Source: Microscilla marina ATCC 23134 (lineage in GTDB: Bacteria > Bacteroidota > Bacteroidia > Cytophagales > Microscillaceae). Taken from it: a stretch of DNA of 60,578 nucleotides. Location of the stretch: the NCBI RefSeq assembly GCF_000169175.1, contig NZ_AAWS01000056.1:1-60578 (forward strand). Reading direction: 5' to 3'. Shown piece after piece: positions 1-26,739 of the stretch (position 1 is the first letter of the stretch; the number at the start of each line of letters is the position of its first letter). The translations under genes and the position numbers were made by a program. The notes beneath the pieces are model-generated. The model was not told the DNA's origin and did no database searches. It saw only the letters and a list, made by a program, of their open reading frames with translations.

Positions 1-1
1 T

Positions 2-331
2 AGCGTCGTCATATATTTATATACCGAGGTATGCGATTTTCGCAAAGGCTTCGAGGGCTTGTGTAACTTGGTGATGGAGCGCTTTGGTGAATTGCTCACC
101 AGTGGCTCAGTGTTTATATTTTTCAATCGTCGTCGTGATCGGGTAAAGTTACTATGTTGGGAAGGAGATGGTTTTGCGATTTACTACAAGCGTTTAGAAA
201 CAGGTACTTATGAACGCCCTCAGATGAGTTGGGGTACCCGCCCACTGACTGCTTCCGAAGCTCATTTACTTTTATCAGGTATTTCTTTGAGTTCGGTGAC
301 TTATCGCAAACGTTATTTGGCAAAAGCGTAG
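2..331 (+). CDS. tnpB: IS66 accessory protein TnpB (Orf2), 5' end missing
   Basis: The reading frame is open from the first bases of the window; the start codon lies upstream. The translation contains the TnpB signature: YLYTEVCDFRKGFEGL, then a GSVFIFFNRRRDRVKLL segment, then WEGDGFAIYYKRLETGTYE. An internal TTG at 59 gives a shorter reading but would cut off the conserved TDMRKGFDGL-like segment, so the longer frame is preferred. TnpB is required with TnpA and TnpC for IS66 transposition; its biochemical role is poorly known. tnpC starts 31 bp downstream, the normal arrangement for the family. Confidence 0.88.
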   Translation, partial: SVVIYLYTEVCDFRKGFEGLCNLVMERFGELLTSGSVFIFFNRRRDRVKLLCWEGDGFAIYYKRLETGTYERPQMSWGTRPLTASEAHLLLSGISLSSVTYRKRYLAKA

Positions 332-362
332 ATATTTCGGTTAGATTTAATAGTTTTGCCCT

Positions 363-3300
363 ATGCAGGAACAAAAACCTACATATGAGGCACTTGCCAA
401 AGAAAATGCTGATTTGAAGGCGCTTATCTCAAACCAAAATCTAGAGATGACTGAACTCAAAGCCCAGCTTGATGAACTACTTCGTTTGACCTATGACACC
501 AAGTCAGAGTCTCGTGGTAGCAACTACACCCCTGCAAAAAAAAAGCGCAAGTTGAAAATCCCGAACTTGCATTCGGGGAAGAAGTAGTAGATACGGTTAA
601 GTCCGCTTCACCTCCCAAAAAAACATCTAATAAACTTTTAAATGCTGAGGGCAAGTTCCCTGAGCACTTACCACGCAAAGAAGTGGTGATCACTCCTGAT
701 GAACCCATCACCGAAGATATGCGTCGTTTGCCTGACCGAATTACCGAGGTACTCGATTATGTGCCAGGTCATTTGGTGGTCATTCGTTACATTCGCCATT
801 GTTATATCAAAGATGTAGCAGATGGTTTGCACGCTAAAAAAATAATGGCGGCTAAGCCTGAACGCCCTATCAACAGGTGTTTGGCAGATGCAGCACTACT
901 TGCCCAAATTATTTGTGATAAATACTGTGACCACTTGCCTTTATATCGTCAACTCCAGCGCTTTGAGCGGTCAGGGGTTCGGATAGGTTCTTCTACGTTC
1001 AACTCTTGGGTTGAAAAAATCGCCCAATTACTCACTCCATTGTACGATTTGTTGCAAAAAGAAGTACTTTCAAGCAATTATATAAGAATCGATGAGCCCC
1101 CTATCAAGGTACTCGACCGCGAAAAGAAAAAAAACATCCACCAAGGCTATTTATGGTATTATCAGTCAGGTAAAGCCTGTTTTATCCAATATCATCACTC
1201 AAGGGGTAGTGAACCTCCAGATAAAATTCTAGCTCATTTCAAAGGAAAAATCCAGACTGATGGCTATGGGGTCTATGATCATTTTGAAGAAAATGAACAT
1301 ATGACATTGTTTGGGTGTTGGGCGCACGCGAGGCGCAAAATATTCGAAGTCAGCAAGGCACACCCTTCCCTGACCGAAGCTCCTCTGGAGTTCATTGGAG
1401 AACTATATCTTATCGAGAAGCAGATCAAAAAACAAGGATTGGATACAACAGGAGCAAGCTTGCTACGTAGGCAAAAAGCGGGTACTCCTTTGATGAAGCT
1501 CAAGCATTGGATGCATAAAACCAAAACCAAGCTCAAGCCCAAAATGAAGCTTTATAAAGCGATTGAATACATCCAAAAACGTTGGCAGAAATTGATTCGA
1601 TACCTCTGGCATGGAGAGGTGCAGATTGATAACAATCTGATAGAAAACGCTATTCGTTCCGCTGCACTGGGGCGCAAAGTGTGGGTCGTTGGTGATACCA
1701 AGAAGTCACGGCTTCTGAAGTTCACCCCACCATCAACCGATGGTCAACAGGGAAAGGCGAGAGCCTGAAACCAAGAGAACTTGTTTATGATGAGGGTGCA
1801 AGTCCCTCCATCTAGGCATCTGATTGAAAGCATAGTGTCCAGTGATTGGAAAGTGGTATCTCCAATAGCTGAAGCGGCACTAAAAGCGGCACAACTGGTA
1901 GTGCAATCCAGGGTAGCTGCCAGCAACTGACTATGAATAACGAAAGTGAATGTTTGTAAACCATCGTGACGAGTAAGTTGGGAAAAGCACTGACACCCAG
2001 CGTTCAAAACATGAGCATAAGCCAAAGTAGGAAAGGAAAAATGTTTTGCGGTTTTTCCTGATGCTTTCCTCACAGCTTCGGTGGATTGAGCAATTCTAAG
2101 GTCAGTACCAATCATAAACAGGAACGATTCAAGGTTTGGGGAAGTTCTCTGGAATCTCAGAGTAGTTACCCGCAAAGAAACGCCCCAAGCCAAGGGATGT
2201 GAGAGGAAGCAAACGCCTGCTTGTAATGAGCAGGATAAGCTGAAGGCTCACCTGCTGTATGAGAGATACATTCGTTAAAAACAGTTCAAAGTTCTAGTAT
2301 GGAGACTACAAAACAGTCAAAGTTGAAATGGAATACCTGGCAAATGATCGACTGGAAACAGGTGGATTTACAGGTATTTAAGCTGCAAAAACGAATTTAT
2401 CGAGCTACACAAAAGAATGAATTACCCAAAGTTCGCAAACTCCAAAAGATGATGACCAGTTCAATGTTTGCTAAGCTCTTGGCGGTAAGGAAGGTAACTC
2501 AGGAGAATAAAGGCAAGAAGACCGCAGGAATTGACGGAGTAAAATCCCTTAATCCGAAAGAGCGTTTCACCCTTGCTCAAAACCTGAAGCTCAACGGAAA
2601 GTCTAGTAGTACCCGCAGGATATGGATACCCAAATCTAACGCGGAGAAAAGACCCCTGAGCATACCTACCATACAAGAAAGAGCTAAACAAACTCTACTT
2701 AAACTGGCACTGGAACCCGAATGGGAAGCTCGATTTGAGCCTCATTCTTATGGATTTCGCCCAGGTCGTTCTCCTCACGACGCTGTCAAAGCCATTTTCT
2801 GTTGCATCAATAAAAAACCTAAGTATGTTTTGGATGCAGACATCAGTAAGTGCTTTGATAAAATCAACCACCAATATCTACTTGACAAGCTCAATACTTC
2901 TCCCACCTTTTCACGCCAAATAAAGGCTTGGCTCAAAGCAGGAGTTATAGACTTCTCAGAACGGGCTGAAAGAAAAGGACATAATCCCACCCATAGTGGA
3001 ACACCGCAAGGCGGTAGTATTTCACCGCTTTTAGCTAACATTGCCCTGCATGGATTGGAGAACTTCATTGCAGAACACTATCCATCCAATACAGACCGAA
3101 GGCTAAAACACTCGCGGAGAGATTATGGTAGACGTATACAAGCTCCTCGCCTTATAAGGTATGCCGATGATTTCGTGATACTATGTGAGGAATTAGCGCC
3201 GATAGAGCATTGCAAAAGCTTGGTAGAAAATTGGTTAAGGGAAAGCGACCTAGAACTTCATCCCAGCAAGACCAGAATAGTACATACCCTCCAAAAACAC

Positions 3301-6300
3301 CATGACCAAAAACCAGGATTCAATTTTCTAGGCTTTGAAATCAGACAGTTCGAGGTAGGGAAGCATCAATCTGGAAACCTCAATGGTAAGAAGTTAGGAT
3401 TCAAAACTATCATCCAACCCTCCAAAGAAAGCATTGATAGACATTACCAAACACTTAAAGCCACTTGCATTAAACACCGAGCGTTAAGTGCTGGAGCTTT
3501 AATCAGTAACCTCAATCCAATAATCAGAGGTTGGTGCAACTATCAATCTCCTTGGCATGCTTCAAAAAGCTTCTCCAAAGTAAAAGATTTATTGTGGAAA
3601 CGACTATGGAGGTGGGCAAAACGCCGACATCCCAAGAAGAAACTACCTTGGATCAAAAAGAAATACTTTGGAACAAAGCAAAGAAGGTGGGCATTTGTCC
3701 ATCGAACGAAGGAAGCCGAATACAGGCTCTTGTATCACTCTGACTTTCCAAAAAGTGTCAAATGGATACAAGTCAGAGGAGGGAAAAGCCCTTTTGATGG
3801 AGATGAACTATATTGGAGTCGGAGAATAGGAGATAAATACAAAACCTATGATCCGCAAAAAGCCCGCTTGTTAAAAAAGCAAAAGGGTCGATGTGAGCAT
3901 TGTGGACTTAGCTTTAACCCAGATGATATCATTGAAAAGCATCATCTGAAGCCAAAAGTTAAGGGAGGTAGTAATGCAGACAAAAACCTGATACTGGTAC
4001 ATCTGTATTGCCACGACCAAATTCATGCTTAAGTGTGGATGCTATAAACAATGGTAGTAGTCATACACTGAGGAGCGGAGTGAAGGGAAACTGTGCGCCG
4101 TGAAACGCATCAAATAAATTGCTATCCAAGATAGCCAGAGTTCAAAGTAAATACTTTGAGGTGAAGCACTTACTTAAGCCTGAAAAGGCGAGGGGACAAG
4201 AGCATGTGACTAAAGCGGAGAATCATCGAAAACGTGTAGTTGATGGCTCTGCAACGCCTGAGTAATATGGTAAAAGCTATACTGCCTGAAACCCAATATC
4301 CAGAGATGGAACTTCACATTCATCGGGAACACGTTTACCAACCGATGTCTTAGATATACTCAAATCCTACTTTCGTTTGAGGAAAACTTTGATCTAAGAT
4401 CGATAAGTAATGAACTTATTCAAGGATATGAATGGGATACCTAAGTTACTCTATAACGTTTATTGATGACGGAACACGGGATTGCCTACGGGAAGAGATT
4501 CCTATGGTAACGGAGTTCTCATAGTAGTCGTGGGAGTTATGCCCTACCAGGGAGGATGGGAAAGCCATCTACAAGGCAAAGGAGAACAGGTCATTAGATG
4601 TCTAACAAAACGGGAGGTACGCGAGATGCGAAACGCCAAAACGATTTTACACATCATTCAGGAAAGAGGTGAACGTAAGCTACCAATAGAAAGGGTATAT
4701 AGATTACTGTATAACCCTAATCTATACTTGTTAGCTTATTCGAATCTTTATGGTAACAAGGGTGCTCTGACTTCTGGAATAACCCCCGAAACAGCTGACG
4801 GAATGTCTTTGGATAAAATACAAGACATTATCTGCAAGCTCAAACAGGAAAGTTATCGTTGGAAACCATCCAAACGTATATTTATTCCAAAGAAAAATGG
4901 GCAACCACGCCCTCTGAGCATTCCTTGTTGGTCAGATAAACTGCTACAAGAAGTCATTAGACTTATTCTGGAAGCATATTTTGAACCACAGTTTTGTGAA
5001 AGTTCTCACGGCTTTAGAACTGGTAGAGGTTGTCATTCAGCATTGAAGCAAATGAGATTGAAAGGTAAAGGAAGTAAATGGTTCATAGAAGGAGATATTC
5101 AAGGATGTTTTGATAACATAAACCATCAACTCATCATTAAACTTCTCTCTGATAAACTTTACGATCCCCGATTCATTCGCCTCATTTCCCAACTGCTTAA
5201 AACAGGTTATATAGAAGGCTGGAAATATAACAAAACCTATAGCGGTGTTCCACAAGGATCAATTATTGGTCCTATTTTGACCAATATTGTTTTAAACGAA
5301 TTAGACAAATTCGTGGAAAATAAATTGATACCTGCTAATACCAAAGGTAAAAGACGTAGATCTTGCCCCAAATATGCCCTAATTAAAAGGCAAGCTTCAA
5401 AAGCTCGTAAACAAGGAGATATGGATAAGTGCAGAGAATTAAACAAACAAGCACAGAAAATCCCCTCCCGAGACACCAACGATCCTAAGTATCGGAGATT
5501 ATGGTACATCAGGTACGCCAACGATACGCTGTTAGGGTATATTGGTAAAAAGGAAGAAGCTATTAAAATAAAAGAACAAATAGCTGATTTTCTGGCAAAC
5601 GAACTACACTTGACATTGAATAGTGACAAAACCTTGATTACCCACGCTCAAAGCCAAAAAGCAAGCTTTCTTGGGTATCACATTAGAACCTTACAAGAAG
5701 ATGCTAAACACGACCGAACTGGACAAAGGTGCATTAATGGTAATATAGGCTTGGAAATTCCAGCACGAGTTATCAAAGAACACAGTGCTAGATATATAAA
5801 AAGAGGAAAACCTTGTCACTTACCACAACACACTATTGACTCGGCTTATAGTATTATCCGTCAATACCAATCTGAATACCAAGGTTTGGTACAATACTAT
5901 CGTATGGCTTACAACCTACACACCATCAGTAAGTTAAAATATGTGATGGAACAATCTCTGGTAAAGACTTTAGCTAATAAGTACAAAACTACTTGTAATA
6001 AAGTCTACAAAAAGTACGCTACTACCATAGAGATTGAAGGACAAGCCTACAAAGTATTACAAACTCTGGTAGAAAGAGAGGGAAAAACACCACTCAAAGC
6101 ACATTTTGGAGGTGTTTCTACCAAATGGAATGGATGGGTAACAATTGATGATGCGAAAGATAGCAATATCTGGAATCATAGATCGGAAGTGGTAGAGCGT
6201 CTACTGGCTCAAAAATGTGAATTGTGTGGAAGTACTCAAAATATTGAGGTGCACCACATTAGAAAACTCAATCCAAACAGAAACAAAGGTACACCTGTTC

Positions 6301-6764
6301 CAGAATGGAAAAAGAAAATGATGGCAAGAAAACGTAAAACACTTATTGTTTGCCAAAAATGTCATCAACAAATTCATTATGGGAAATATGACAGCAAGCC
6401 ATTATCTTGAATTTGACTGGAGAGCCGGATGATACAGAAATTGGTCAAGTCCGGTTCGGAGAGGGGGTGTTGGAAAAGTAGCTGGCAACAGCCAACTCGC
6501 TGGCATCCTACTCTACTTCACGCTCCGTTCTGGAGACCAGTGTGGGAGGGTGACCTCCCCGCTGAGTTTAACAACTACCTCTTTGCTGGCTCACAAGATG
6601 CCGCAGAACGCACTGCACTCTTCTACTCTTTGATTGGTTCTTGCAAAATAGTAGGGGTAAATCCACTCGCTTGGCTTACAAATGTGATCAAAAATATCAA
6701 TAATCACCCTATTCAAAAACTACATCTTTTGCTGCCTAGCAACTGGAAAACGCAACAAGGTTAG
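363..6764 (+). CDS. tnpC: IS66 transposase TnpC, split by a group II intron and carrying a -1 frameshift site
   Basis: The coding parts are 363-1678 and 6573-6764. An N-terminal leucine-zipper-like coiled coil (363-545) is followed by a needed -1 shift at an A9 run (536-544). The catalytic part then runs to 1678, and the last 63 codons come after the intron. Seen residues: Asp in RIDEPPIKV, Asp in QTDGYGVYD, the GCWAHARRKIFE motif, and Glu in NNLIENAIR, i.e. the IS66 DDE core. The spliced junction reads ALGRK-NYLFAGSQDAAERTAL, matching the family consensus with no missing residue. The joined product is about 502 aa, normal for TnpC. Without splicing, translation runs into the intron and stops at 1768, losing the C-terminal domain. 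Confidence 0.85.
536..570 (+). promoter_or_regulatory. candidate -1 ribosomal frameshift or transcriptional slippage site in tnpC
   Basis: Nine A residues (536-544) followed by G form the heptamer A AAA AAG at 539-545 in the incoming frame, a classical -1 slippery site. One base later a 7-bp stem can form (547-553 with 564-570, 10-nt loop). The incoming frame stops at 587, while the -1 frame continues through the rest of the transposase. A simple one-base indel in a decayed gene would look the same. Confidence 0.5.
2299..4032 (+). CDS. ltrA: group II intron reverse transcriptase/maturase with HNH domain (intron 1)
   Basis: 577-aa intron-encoded protein that helps fold and splice intron 1 and, in active relatives, copies it into new DNA sites. 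An N-terminal RT segment (about 15-75, WQMIDW...RIYRAT...KLLAVRKVT) is followed by RT motifs including DADISKCFDKINH (about 179-191), SGTPQGGSISPLLANI, and an intact YADD (288-291). The maturase/X region (WCNYQSPWHASKSF...RLWRWAKRRHP) comes next. A C-terminal HNH endonuclease has CEHCG, EKHHLKPKVKGGS and CHDQIH. Full length with all visible catalytic residues, so it could be active. It lies about 620 nt into its intron, as expected for a domain IV ORF; 60 bp downstream intron 2 interrupts domain V. Confidence 0.93.
   Translation: METTKQSKLKWNTWQMIDWKQVDLQVFKLQKRIYRATQKNELPKVRKLQKMMTSSMFAKLLAVRKVTQENKGKKTAGIDGVKSLNPKERFTLAQNLKLNGKSSSTRRIWIPKSNAEKRPLSIPTIQERAKQTLLKLALEPEWEARFEPHSYGFRPGRSPHDAVKAIFCCINKKPKYVLDADISKCFDKINHQYLLDKLNTSPTFSRQIKAWLKAGVIDFSERAERKGHNPTHSGTPQGGSISPLLANIALHGLENFIAEHYPSNTDRRLKHSRRDYGRRIQAPRLIRYADDFVILCEELAPIEHCKSLVENWLRESDLELHPSKTRIVHTLQKHHDQKPGFNFLGFEIRQFEVGKHQSGNLNGKKLGFKTIIQPSKESIDRHYQTLKATCIKHRALSAGALISNLNPIIRGWCNYQSPWHASKSFSKVKDLLWKRLWRWAKRRHPKKKLPWIKKKYFGTKQRRWAFVHRTKEAEYRLLYHSDFPKSVKWIQVRGGKSPFDGDELYWSRRIGDKYKTYDPQKARLLKKQKGRCEHCGLSFNPDDIIEKHHLKPKVKGGSNADKNLILVHLYCHDQIHA
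4612..4617 (+). promoter_or_regulatory. ribosome binding site GGGAGG choosing the intron 2 ORF start
   Basis: GGGAGG lies 8 bases before the ATG at 4626. The frame is also open upstream to an ATG at 4482, but that stretch is structured intron RNA rather than protein-like sequence. Confidence 0.6.
4626..6410 (+). CDS. ltrA: group II intron reverse transcriptase/maturase with HNH domain, YADD changed to YAND (intron 2)
   Basis: 594 aa from the preferred start (MRNAKTILHI, after a GGGAGG). RT motifs: FIPKKNGQPRPLSIP (about 86-100), EGDIQGCFDNINH (about 155-167), SGVPQGSIIGPILTNI (about 206-221). Where YADD is expected the sequence reads YAND (297-300, codons TAC GCC AAC GAT), so one of the two adjacent metal-binding aspartates is replaced by Asn. 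A maturase region and a C-terminal HNH domain (CELCGS, VHHIRKLNP, CQKCHQQIH) follow. It is only distantly related to the intron 1 protein, so the nesting is not a self-duplication. Splicing help may persist without reverse transcriptase activity, but retrohoming should be impaired. Confidence 0.92.
   Translation: MRNAKTILHIIQERGERKLPIERVYRLLYNPNLYLLAYSNLYGNKGALTSGITPETADGMSLDKIQDIICKLKQESYRWKPSKRIFIPKKNGQPRPLSIPCWSDKLLQEVIRLILEAYFEPQFCESSHGFRTGRGCHSALKQMRLKGKGSKWFIEGDIQGCFDNINHQLIIKLLSDKLYDPRFIRLISQLLKTGYIEGWKYNKTYSGVPQGSIIGPILTNIVLNELDKFVENKLIPANTKGKRRRSCPKYALIKRQASKARKQGDMDKCRELNKQAQKIPSRDTNDPKYRRLWYIRYANDTLLGYIGKKEEAIKIKEQIADFLANELHLTLNSDKTLITHAQSQKASFLGYHIRTLQEDAKHDRTGQRCINGNIGLEIPARVIKEHSARYIKRGKPCHLPQHTIDSAYSIIRQYQSEYQGLVQYYRMAYNLHTISKLKYVMEQSLVKTLANKYKTTCNKVYKKYATTIEIEGQAYKVLQTLVEREGKTPLKAHFGGVSTKWNGWVTIDDAKDSNIWNHRSEVVERLLAQKCELCGSTQNIEVHHIRKLNPNRNKGTPVPEWKKKMMARKRKTLIVCQKCHQQIHYGKYDSKPLS
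6422..6457 (+). ncRNA. domain V of intron 2
   Basis: GAGCCGGAU (6422-6430) pairs with GUCCGGUUC (6449-6457), with an AA bulge and a GAAA loop at 6437-6440. The upper stem (6431-6436 with 6441-6446) has two adjacent mismatches, so it is weaker than usual. Confidence 0.78.
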
Positions 6765-25248: not shown

Positions 25249-26739
25249 ATGGCGAGAGCAGTTGTGATAGGTGCAGGTATAGCCGGCATAGCCACCAGTA
25301 TACGCCTGGCTACTGCCGGGTATCAGGTAGAGGTATACGAAGCCAACGATTATCCTGGAGGCAAACTTACCCAGTTCGAACAAGACGGCTTTAGGTTCGA
25401 CGCAGGACCATCTTTGTTTACCATGCCTTTTTTGGTAGACGAATTGTTCGAAGAGGCAGGCAAAAATCCCACACATTATTTTAATTATGAGCAGCTCCCG
25501 GTAGTTTGCAACTATTTTTATGAAGATGGCACCCGTCTTTCGGCGTATGCCCAACCCACCGCCTTTGCCCAAGAGGTAGAACAAAAGCTGGGCGTGCCCG
25601 CCAAAGTGCTGGAAAAACATTTGCACAACAGTGCCGAAATATTTGAGCATACACACCAGTTGTTTATGGAGCAATCGTTGCATCAGGCAAAAAACTTCCT
25701 GAATCTCGATGTAGTCAAGAGCATTGCCAATATGTATAAAATGCACATTTTCAGCACAATGCACGAGGTAAATCAGCGCAAACTCAAAAACCCTCACCTG
25801 GTACAGTTGTTTGACCGTTATGCTACTTATAATGGCTCAAGTCCTTACAAAGCACCTGGTATACTCAATATTATACCCCACCTAGAGCACAACATGGGAG
25901 CTTATTTGCCGCAAGGCGGTATGCATAGCATTACCCAAAGCGTGTATAAACTTGCCATAGAGCTAGGGGTACAGTTTAGGCTGGGCGCCAAAGTAGACAA
26001 AATCATGGTAGAAAATAAGGTGGCCAAAGGGGTGATGGTGCAGGGGAGAGAAGTGTTGGCCGATGTAGTAGTGAGCAATATGGATGTGGTGCCCACCTAT
26101 AGGCATTTGCTCAAAAACGAGCCCGCTCCCGAAAAAGCGCTCAAGCAAGAGAGATCTAGCTCAGCCTTGATTTTTTACTGGGGCATGGGGGCTACTTTTC
26201 CCGAGTTAGATGTACACAATATTTTGTTTGCCCAAGACTACAAGGCAGAGTTTGAGCATTTGTTTGAGCTCAAAAAAATATACCCTGATCCTACAGTGTA
26301 TATCAACATTACGTCGAAACGCGAAAAAAACGATGCCCCTGCCAATGCCGAAAATTGGTTTGTGATGGTAAATGTACCAGGCAACCAAGGGCAAGACTGG
26401 GATCAGTGGATTACCGAAACCCGACAAAGTGTGTTGGACAAAACCAGCCGGATATTGGGCAAAGACATTGGAGCGCTTATACAAACCGAGGCCATTTTAG
26501 ACCCGCGCAGCATCGAGCAAAAAACGTCTTCGTTTCAGGGGTCGCTGTATGGCTCAAGTTCTAACAATCGTTACGCGGCATTTTTGCGTCACCCCAACTT
26601 TTCGCGTAAAATCAAGCATTTATATTTTTGTGGGGGCAGTGTACATCCAGGTGGAGGTATTCCGCTATGTTTGCTGTCTGCCAAAATAGTTTCAAACATT
26701 ATCAAAGAAAAGCATGGAGCGTTGGTCACTACACAATAA
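25249..26739 (+). CDS. crtD: carotenoid 3,4-desaturase CrtD
   Basis: 496-aa FAD enzyme of the CrtI family; second desaturase of the cluster. N-terminal VIGAGIAGIATSIRLATAGY and DAGPSLFTMP. The C-terminal signature CGGSVHPGGGIPLCLLSAK is the form found in CrtD-type hydroxycarotenoid desaturases rather than CrtI (compare GQLTVPGPGVPPSLISG in the first gene). It likely introduces the 3',4' double bond after C-1' hydroxylation by CruF, whose gene overlaps its end by 26 bp. Confidence 0.9.
   Translation: MARAVVIGAGIAGIATSIRLATAGYQVEVYEANDYPGGKLTQFEQDGFRFDAGPSLFTMPFLVDELFEEAGKNPTHYFNYEQLPVVCNYFYEDGTRLSAYAQPTAFAQEVEQKLGVPAKVLEKHLHNSAEIFEHTHQLFMEQSLHQAKNFLNLDVVKSIANMYKMHIFSTMHEVNQRKLKNPHLVQLFDRYATYNGSSPYKAPGILNIIPHLEHNMGAYLPQGGMHSITQSVYKLAIELGVQFRLGAKVDKIMVENKVAKGVMVQGREVLADVVVSNMDVVPTYRHLLKNEPAPEKALKQERSSSALIFYWGMGATFPELDVHNILFAQDYKAEFEHLFELKKIYPDPTVYINITSKREKNDAPANAENWFVMVNVPGNQGQDWDQWITETRQSVLDKTSRILGKDIGALIQTEAILDPRSIEQKTSSFQGSLYGSSSNNRYAAFLRHPNFSRKIKHLYFCGGSVHPGGGIPLCLLSAKIVSNIIKEKHGALVTTQ

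Follow-up and report, generated by a model that had tools for sequence, protein, structure and literature searches.

How does an intron fare when its catalytic core is occupied by a second intron? The question is raised by the left end of a Microscilla marina ATCC 23134 contig (NZ_AAWS01000056.1; the window analysed is the whole stretch from position 1 to 60,578, 60,578 nt). There, the transposase gene tnpC of an IS66 element is interrupted by a group II intron (the outer intron, 1679-6572), and domain V (DV) of that intron is split by another group II intron (the inner intron, 4093-6516). The nest is a group II twintron in a bacterium; it probably arose by retrohoming of an inner intron from a lineage that homes into DV of other group II introns. 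A sequence-only reading of the window had proposed the nest inside a transposon. The proposal is borne out by an empty site elsewhere in the genome and by the rebuilt DV, and the limits given for both introns, including the inner ends GTGCG and CTAC, are exact to the base (Table 1).

The nest and the rebuilt domain V

Group II introns have their active site in DV, which corresponds to the U6 core of the spliceosome and is the most conserved stretch of these introns. The inner intron splits the outer DV between nucleotides 20 and 21 (20/21). Joining 4073-4092 to 6517-6530 produces a 34-nt DV with 13 of 13 pairs, the AGC triad, the CG bulge and the GAAA loop, as predicted, and the rebuilt DV folds at -17.8 kcal/mol. 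When domain VI (DVI) is included the fold reaches -43.0 kcal/mol and A6565 is bulged, in agreement with the earlier assignment. Joined in the same way, the flanks at 12 sites where relatives are inserted outside DV gave 1-7 of the 13 DV pairs, and random flank joins gave 13 pairs in 6 per 1,000,000.

The limits of the outer intron can be set exactly at 1679-6572 because the M. marina genome contains an uninterrupted IS66 paralogue (locus L019; 93% identity to the window exons over 1,890 nt). The paralogue reads GGGGCGCAAAAACTACC without a break, and this is the empty site of the outer intron. With the insert removed, tnpC is open over 449 codons and its layout matches that of the paralogue. 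Relatives of the outer intron in the same order (L056-L064) share 42-54% protein identity and have 5' ends of the form GTGYG. Their DV is unbroken where it was read (L060, L063), so that the search for uninterrupted relatives suggested by the sequence-only reading succeeded, and their DVI is close to the joined window DVI, with a similar ending.

The two introns differ in origin, in line with the earlier claim. Duplication of one intron as the source of the nest was rejected, given that BLASTP aligns the inner and outer proteins over 538 columns at 27% identity. A covariance-model search, also suggested earlier, recovered one part of the nest: the sole Rfam match of the window at gathering score is RF00029 at 6420-6516 (47.7 bits), which is the inner DV/DVI, and the D1-D4 models fall far under gathering for both introns (19.7 vs 49 bits; 17.4 vs 35 bits, the latter being the best value for the inner intron). 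Relatives of the inner intron are likewise mostly detected by Rfam through DV alone.

Insertion sites of inner-intron relatives

We read at least one flank of the intron at 40 loci (the window, L025, L054, L065-L072, L076, L079, L081 and L086-L111). Selection followed rank, and the later additions were near relatives of DV cases, so the sample is not random and the proportions given here are not estimates. The best matches to the inner protein in plasmid records have 45-59% identity (40 records at E 1e-120).

Insertion at DV 20/21 was found at 10 of the 40 loci, which come from the window, Priestia, Microvirga, Salmonella plasmids and Streptomyces. It is seen on both flanks in the window, in L066 and L099 (Priestia) and in L069 (Microvirga). 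At L070, L087, L091, L093, L100 and L101 it is seen by the 3' flank only, where the 14-nt DV remainder and DVI directly follow the intron end. Among the seven plasmid loci retrieved first, when the pattern was not yet known, three proved to be DV insertions (L066, L069, L070). By eye, about seven distinguishable outer introns are present among the ten loci. A second DV position, two bases before the DV 3' end (32/33), is indicated by five loci from Streptomyces. The evidence for this position comes from both flanks in L094, L109 and L110, from the 5' flank only in L108 (the 3' flank is transposase sequence), and from the 3' flank only, by likeness to L094, in L097. The other 25 loci lie outside DV, in reverse-transcriptase frames of other group II introns (as in the Nostoc and Calothrix relatives), insertion sequence (IS) elements, HEARO/IscB, HU, a phage SNF2 gene and other genes.

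The proteins from Microvirga lotononidis and Microvirga ossetica are 90.9% identical, and their host DVs differ in the 3' half. This combination argues that the intron has recently moved from one host intron to another. Taken as far as DV nucleotide 20, the outer intron of Priestia has matches in 97 plasmid records, of which 96 are from Priestia. An unoccupied target with an unbroken 33-nt DV is present on plasmid pBEH3 (L113) of the Priestia strain that also carries L099. In the Salmonella loci L070 and L100, the outer intron resembles an Escherichia coli intron with a read-through DV (L112).

Several host loci have features of their own. In the cyanobacterial loci L067, L068 and L090, the 5' flank ends at the same reverse-transcriptase point (between ELDIEK and C); the joined flanks restore the reverse-transcriptase frame in L067 and L068, and L090 is truncated at the 3' end. 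The Ktedonobacter robiniae relative (L025:4223-4469) lies directly after a HEARO RNA (RF02033, 120 bits) and upstream of an apparent IscB frame, and that of Streptococcus phage phi-SgaBSJ31_rum (L092) lies between two SNF2-family frames. In the Microvirga outer intron, the stretch from the protein frame to DV contains a complete tRNA gene (L069:3369-3441; Rfam tRNA, 68.7 bits), and downstream of position 5905 of L069 the 3' exon resembles, by eye, a tRNA gene's 3' half.

Tuning of the exon-binding sites to domain V

Exon-binding sites (EBSs) were sought in an alignment of the 18 introns for which both the 5' end and the 5' flank are available. Pairing with intron-binding site 1 (IBS1) singles out one alignment column (mean score 4.79, runner-up -0.34), and pairing with IBS2 another (mean score 4.51, runner-up 0.24). 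Over the 18 introns, 191 of 234 EBS/IBS pairs were observed, compared with a mean of 97.7 and a maximum of 136 in flank shuffles (n = 20,000).

These sites were scored against a set of 57 distinct DVs without an interruption, which a sequence pattern had picked out of the loci examined. EBS2 plus EBS1 of the three intact DV 20/21 introns form at least 11 of 13 pairs with 9, 6 and 12 of the 57 DVs (means over all 57: 9.26, 8.33 and 9.05 of 13). In the 15 relatives inserted elsewhere, the best score with any of the DVs is 9 of 13 and none reaches 11; this set includes near-copies (L067, L068 and L090; L076 and L079). The window EBSs pair at 13 of 13 positions with the DV of the outer-intron relative L060, and fit the DVs of L057, L059, L062 and L039 with one G-U. 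Like the nest, its exact boundaries, the rebuilt DV and the repeated use of the same DV point, this tuning is read from sequence.

The introns' match to their own DVs (35 or 36 nt) is 8-9 of 13, and the average over the 57 DVs is 8.3-9.3; self-avoidance through the longer own DV is suggestive only. The own DV is 36 nt long in the Megaera and Microvirga relatives, as in the window.

Six M. marina introns lacking an open reading frame (ORF) were considered as alternative targets, and they match the window EBSs at 10 of 13 positions at most. They are near-identical group II introns of about 700 nt with no adjacent reverse-transcriptase gene (L005-L010, on contigs C17, C27, C30, C41, C65 and C77; 98.4-99.7% identity to L005 over 713-1,039 nt). 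Each scores 69.3 bits with RF00029, and RF01999 is shown for L005 and L006.

Phylogeny and distribution

Trees were built from 29 and 36 proteins. The window and Megaera proteins group together in both (support 98.5/99 and 97.2/99, respectively), and Priestia joins them at 91.5/89 and 94.2/83. Microvirga and Salmonella form a group at 100/100; the first tree attaches it to window, Megaera and Priestia (88.7/60), and the second leaves its position unresolved. The Streptomyces protein of L101 is unplaced, and the Streptomyces loci assigned to 32/33 share a clade with L071, which is inserted in IS3 (99.4/100).

A genome search with the inner protein found matches in 2 of 395 genomes of the M. marina phylum, M. 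marina included. The same search found none in 398 genomes in the phylum of G674 or 386 in that of G672, and these empty results are weak evidence. The Priestia protein found matches in 4 of 398 genomes in the phylum of G673, at five loci that all lie in ordinary sequence, none in DV. Scans of viral contigs identified two distant relatives, and neither of two DV-junction patterns occurred there (0 and 0). The full outer and inner introns are each present in one copy in the M. marina genome. The outer intron additionally has a 268-nt decayed relative on contig C5 and a 48-nt match on C33; C5 carries at 25276-25551 (L003/L016) a decayed group II reverse-transcriptase fragment with internal stops and 81% DNA identity to the outer intron.

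Proposed mechanism and alternatives

We infer the retrohoming route, the inner-first order of splicing and the lost mobility of the window copy. By analogy with known group II retrohoming, EBS2 and EBS1 of the inner ribonucleoprotein would pair with DV nucleotides 8-20, which comprise the 5' strand of the upper stem, the GAAA tetraloop and two further bases, and the intron would then reverse splice between nucleotides 20 and 21. At the RNA level, the inner intron would leave first and DV would be rebuilt, allowing the outer intron to fold and splice and the IS66 transposase message to be restored. The predicted order follows from the established role of DV, as a split DV should be unable to act until the inner intron has left, and the outer intron should thus be unable to splice before then.

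We consider it likely that this is a lineage of bacterial group II introns specialised as parasites of group II introns. Its targeting RNA would read the conserved DV, which would open almost any group II intron to it. The host intron would be disabled at the DNA level, and both it and the host gene would stay functional only through splicing of the parasite. In Streptomyces, one branch would have evolved the second entry near the DV base (32/33). Many introns would offer a target, given the conservation of DV. The tree pattern is consistent either with old DV homing followed by losses (as in Megaera) or with several origins.

Several observations weigh against homing into DV by such a lineage. 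The nearest relative found (Ca. Megaera, 59%) lies within an HU gene and has EBSs that do not match DVs; the tree places it among the DV 20/21 members, does not unite all of these, and has an unresolved backbone. Six of the ten DV 20/21 loci have no recognisable intron 5' end, which was either lost or not found. The window inner intron pairs at 11 of 13 positions at its own site, below its fit to L060, L057, L059, L062 and L039, and the perfectly matched DV target pattern was found in none of 118 genomes of the order; a perfect target is therefore not common in that order.

The nest could instead be dead, a single chance insertion whose inner intron no longer splices and so stands in the way of the outer intron and the transposase alike. 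We regard this as unlikely. The inner protein has YAND where, in the 27 aligned rows covering the motif, one other row has YCDD and 25 have YADD, the catalytic motif required for mobility, and the window copy is therefore probably immobile now. This change, which the sequence-only reading does not mention, affects reverse transcription and not necessarily maturase function, which the protein may retain; YAND may also come from a single-base read error. YAND, the C.C mismatch in the inner EBS1/IBS1 pairing and the modest Rfam score of the inner DV favour a dead nest, but the 36-nt form of that DV is shared with relatives, both intron ORFs are intact, every terminus and branch-point bulge is present, and the exons are in frame. 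Further, most differences between the two IS66 copies are silent (of 449 codons, 76 differ synonymously and 30 non-synonymously; non-synonymous divergence dN 0.033, synonymous divergence dS 0.371). The interrupted copy has therefore not freely decayed; the ratio gives no date for the intron insertion.

It is much less probable that the family simply inserts into many mobile elements and struck DV because group II introns are common there. Although most of the loci read lie outside DV, one phosphodiester is used at all ten 20/21 loci in their different outer introns, and the EBSs are tuned to DV in 3 of 3 testable introns of this type and in 0 of 15 others. An assembly chimera or recombination artefact is barely credible: the genome is a draft of 135 contigs and the window ends in a repeat, but both inner junctions are base-exact within one contig and the same junction type occurs in circular plasmid records of other species.

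Comparison with known twintrons

The sequence-only reading called this nesting in DV inside a transposon unusual. As such, a DV-located twintron is not new, having been described first for psbF of Euglena plastids (Copertino and Hallick 1991, as summarised in a passage of PMC8393795), where a group II intron likewise lies in DV of another and the inner one must be excised first. Unlike in that passage, the host here is a bacterium, a full protein is encoded by each intron, and insertions at one and the same DV point recur across several bacterial groups; the passage mentions neither repeated DV homing nor EBS tuning. The behaviour in bacteria is repeated and site-specific, not a single nest.

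According to the relevant sections of PMC4649490, the Trichodesmium twintron is also bacterial, combines two distantly related introns with different proteins, lies in a coding gene and was shown to splice sequentially. Its inner intron is in domain I, however, at a single site, and those sections describe no lineage-wide targeting. The Thermosynechococcus twintrons, in the corresponding parts of PMC2882425, resemble the M. marina nest in that the inner intron finds an expanding supply of targets at a constant position within another group II intron, but that position lies in domain IV between two start codons of a close relative and the inner intron lacks an ORF. Repeated site-specific insertion into group II introns is also described in passages on the nested introns of Methanosarcina and on Hamiltonella c-Ha.de.I1 (PMC4424553, PMC3522654); these insertions target intron sequences or the element's own copies, and the passages do not mention DV. 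In the open-licence literature searched, which leaves several key older papers outside it, repeated homing into DV is nowhere reported for bacteria.

If this reading is true, an element homing to DV uses a target that every group II intron must keep, and that the host intron thus cannot easily mutate away. The locus would provide a natural, testable case of a retroelement preying on a retroelement, with a forced splicing order and evolution of EBSs toward a conserved RNA target. A published pipeline that finds introns through DV reports missing outer partners (part of PMC8919778); as DV-based surveys miss these partners, such nests may be under-counted.

Features of the locus

The window begins at the contig end within the IS66 element, which is thus cut on its left side. 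For the outer intron, the alignment of relatives gave no clear EBS2 column.

Table 1. Features of the nested introns and of the interrupted IS66 element.
Feature	Coordinates	Strand	Evidence
IS66 5' part: TnpB (Orf2) at 11-331, tnpC transposase to 1678	1..1678	+	Pfam TnpB_IS66 E 4.8e-30; DDE_Tnp_IS66 E 1.2e-83; paralogue L019
Outer intron, 5' segment; 5' end GTGTG	1679..4092	+	Empty site in L019; 5' region aligned with relatives
Outer EBS1 TTTGCG; 6/6 pairs with IBS1 CGCAAA (1673-1678)	2045..2050	+	Alignment with relatives
Outer intron-encoded protein, 577 aa: RVT_N, RVT_1 with YADD, GIIM, HNH	2299..4032	+	Pfam; TIGR04416 above cutoff
Outer DV, nt 1-20; contains inner IBS2 (4080-4086) and IBS1 (4087-4092)	4073..4092	+	Fold; pairing count; EBS/IBS pairing
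Inner intron, 2,424 nt; starts GTGCG, ends CTAC	4093..6516	+	Rfam DV/DVI; fold; comparison with relatives
Inner EBS2 ACTTCAC; 6/7 pairs with IBS2	4311..4317	+	Covariation, 18 introns
Inner EBS1 ACTTTC; 5/6 pairs with IBS1 GAAACT, C.C mismatch at -2	4369..4374	+	Covariation, 18 introns
Inner intron-encoded protein, 594 aa: RVT_1, Intron_maturas2, AI2M-like HNH	4626..6410	+	Pfam; TIGR04416 258.4 bits, under cutoff 300
YAND replacing reverse-transcriptase YADD	5514..5525	+	Protein alignment
Inner intron's own DV, 36 nt	6422..6457	+	Rfam; comparison with relatives
Inner DVI, bulged A6510	6458..6516	+	Comparison with relatives
Outer intron, 3' segment: DV remainder, DVI, 3' end AC	6517..6572	+	Joined fold; L019 empty site; relatives
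Outer DV, nt 21-34	6517..6530	+	Fold; pairing count
Outer DVI with bulged A6565	6531..6572	+	Fold; relatives
IS66 tnpC 3' part, in frame with 1678	6573..6764	+	DDE_Tnp_IS66_C E 7.1e-12; 449-codon joined frame

A short upstream frame is common to both IS66 copies. In each, the start of the transposase lies in this short separate frame (354-584 in the window), which overlaps the main frame (521-1678) at a run of A; the overlap is perhaps a programmed frameshift.

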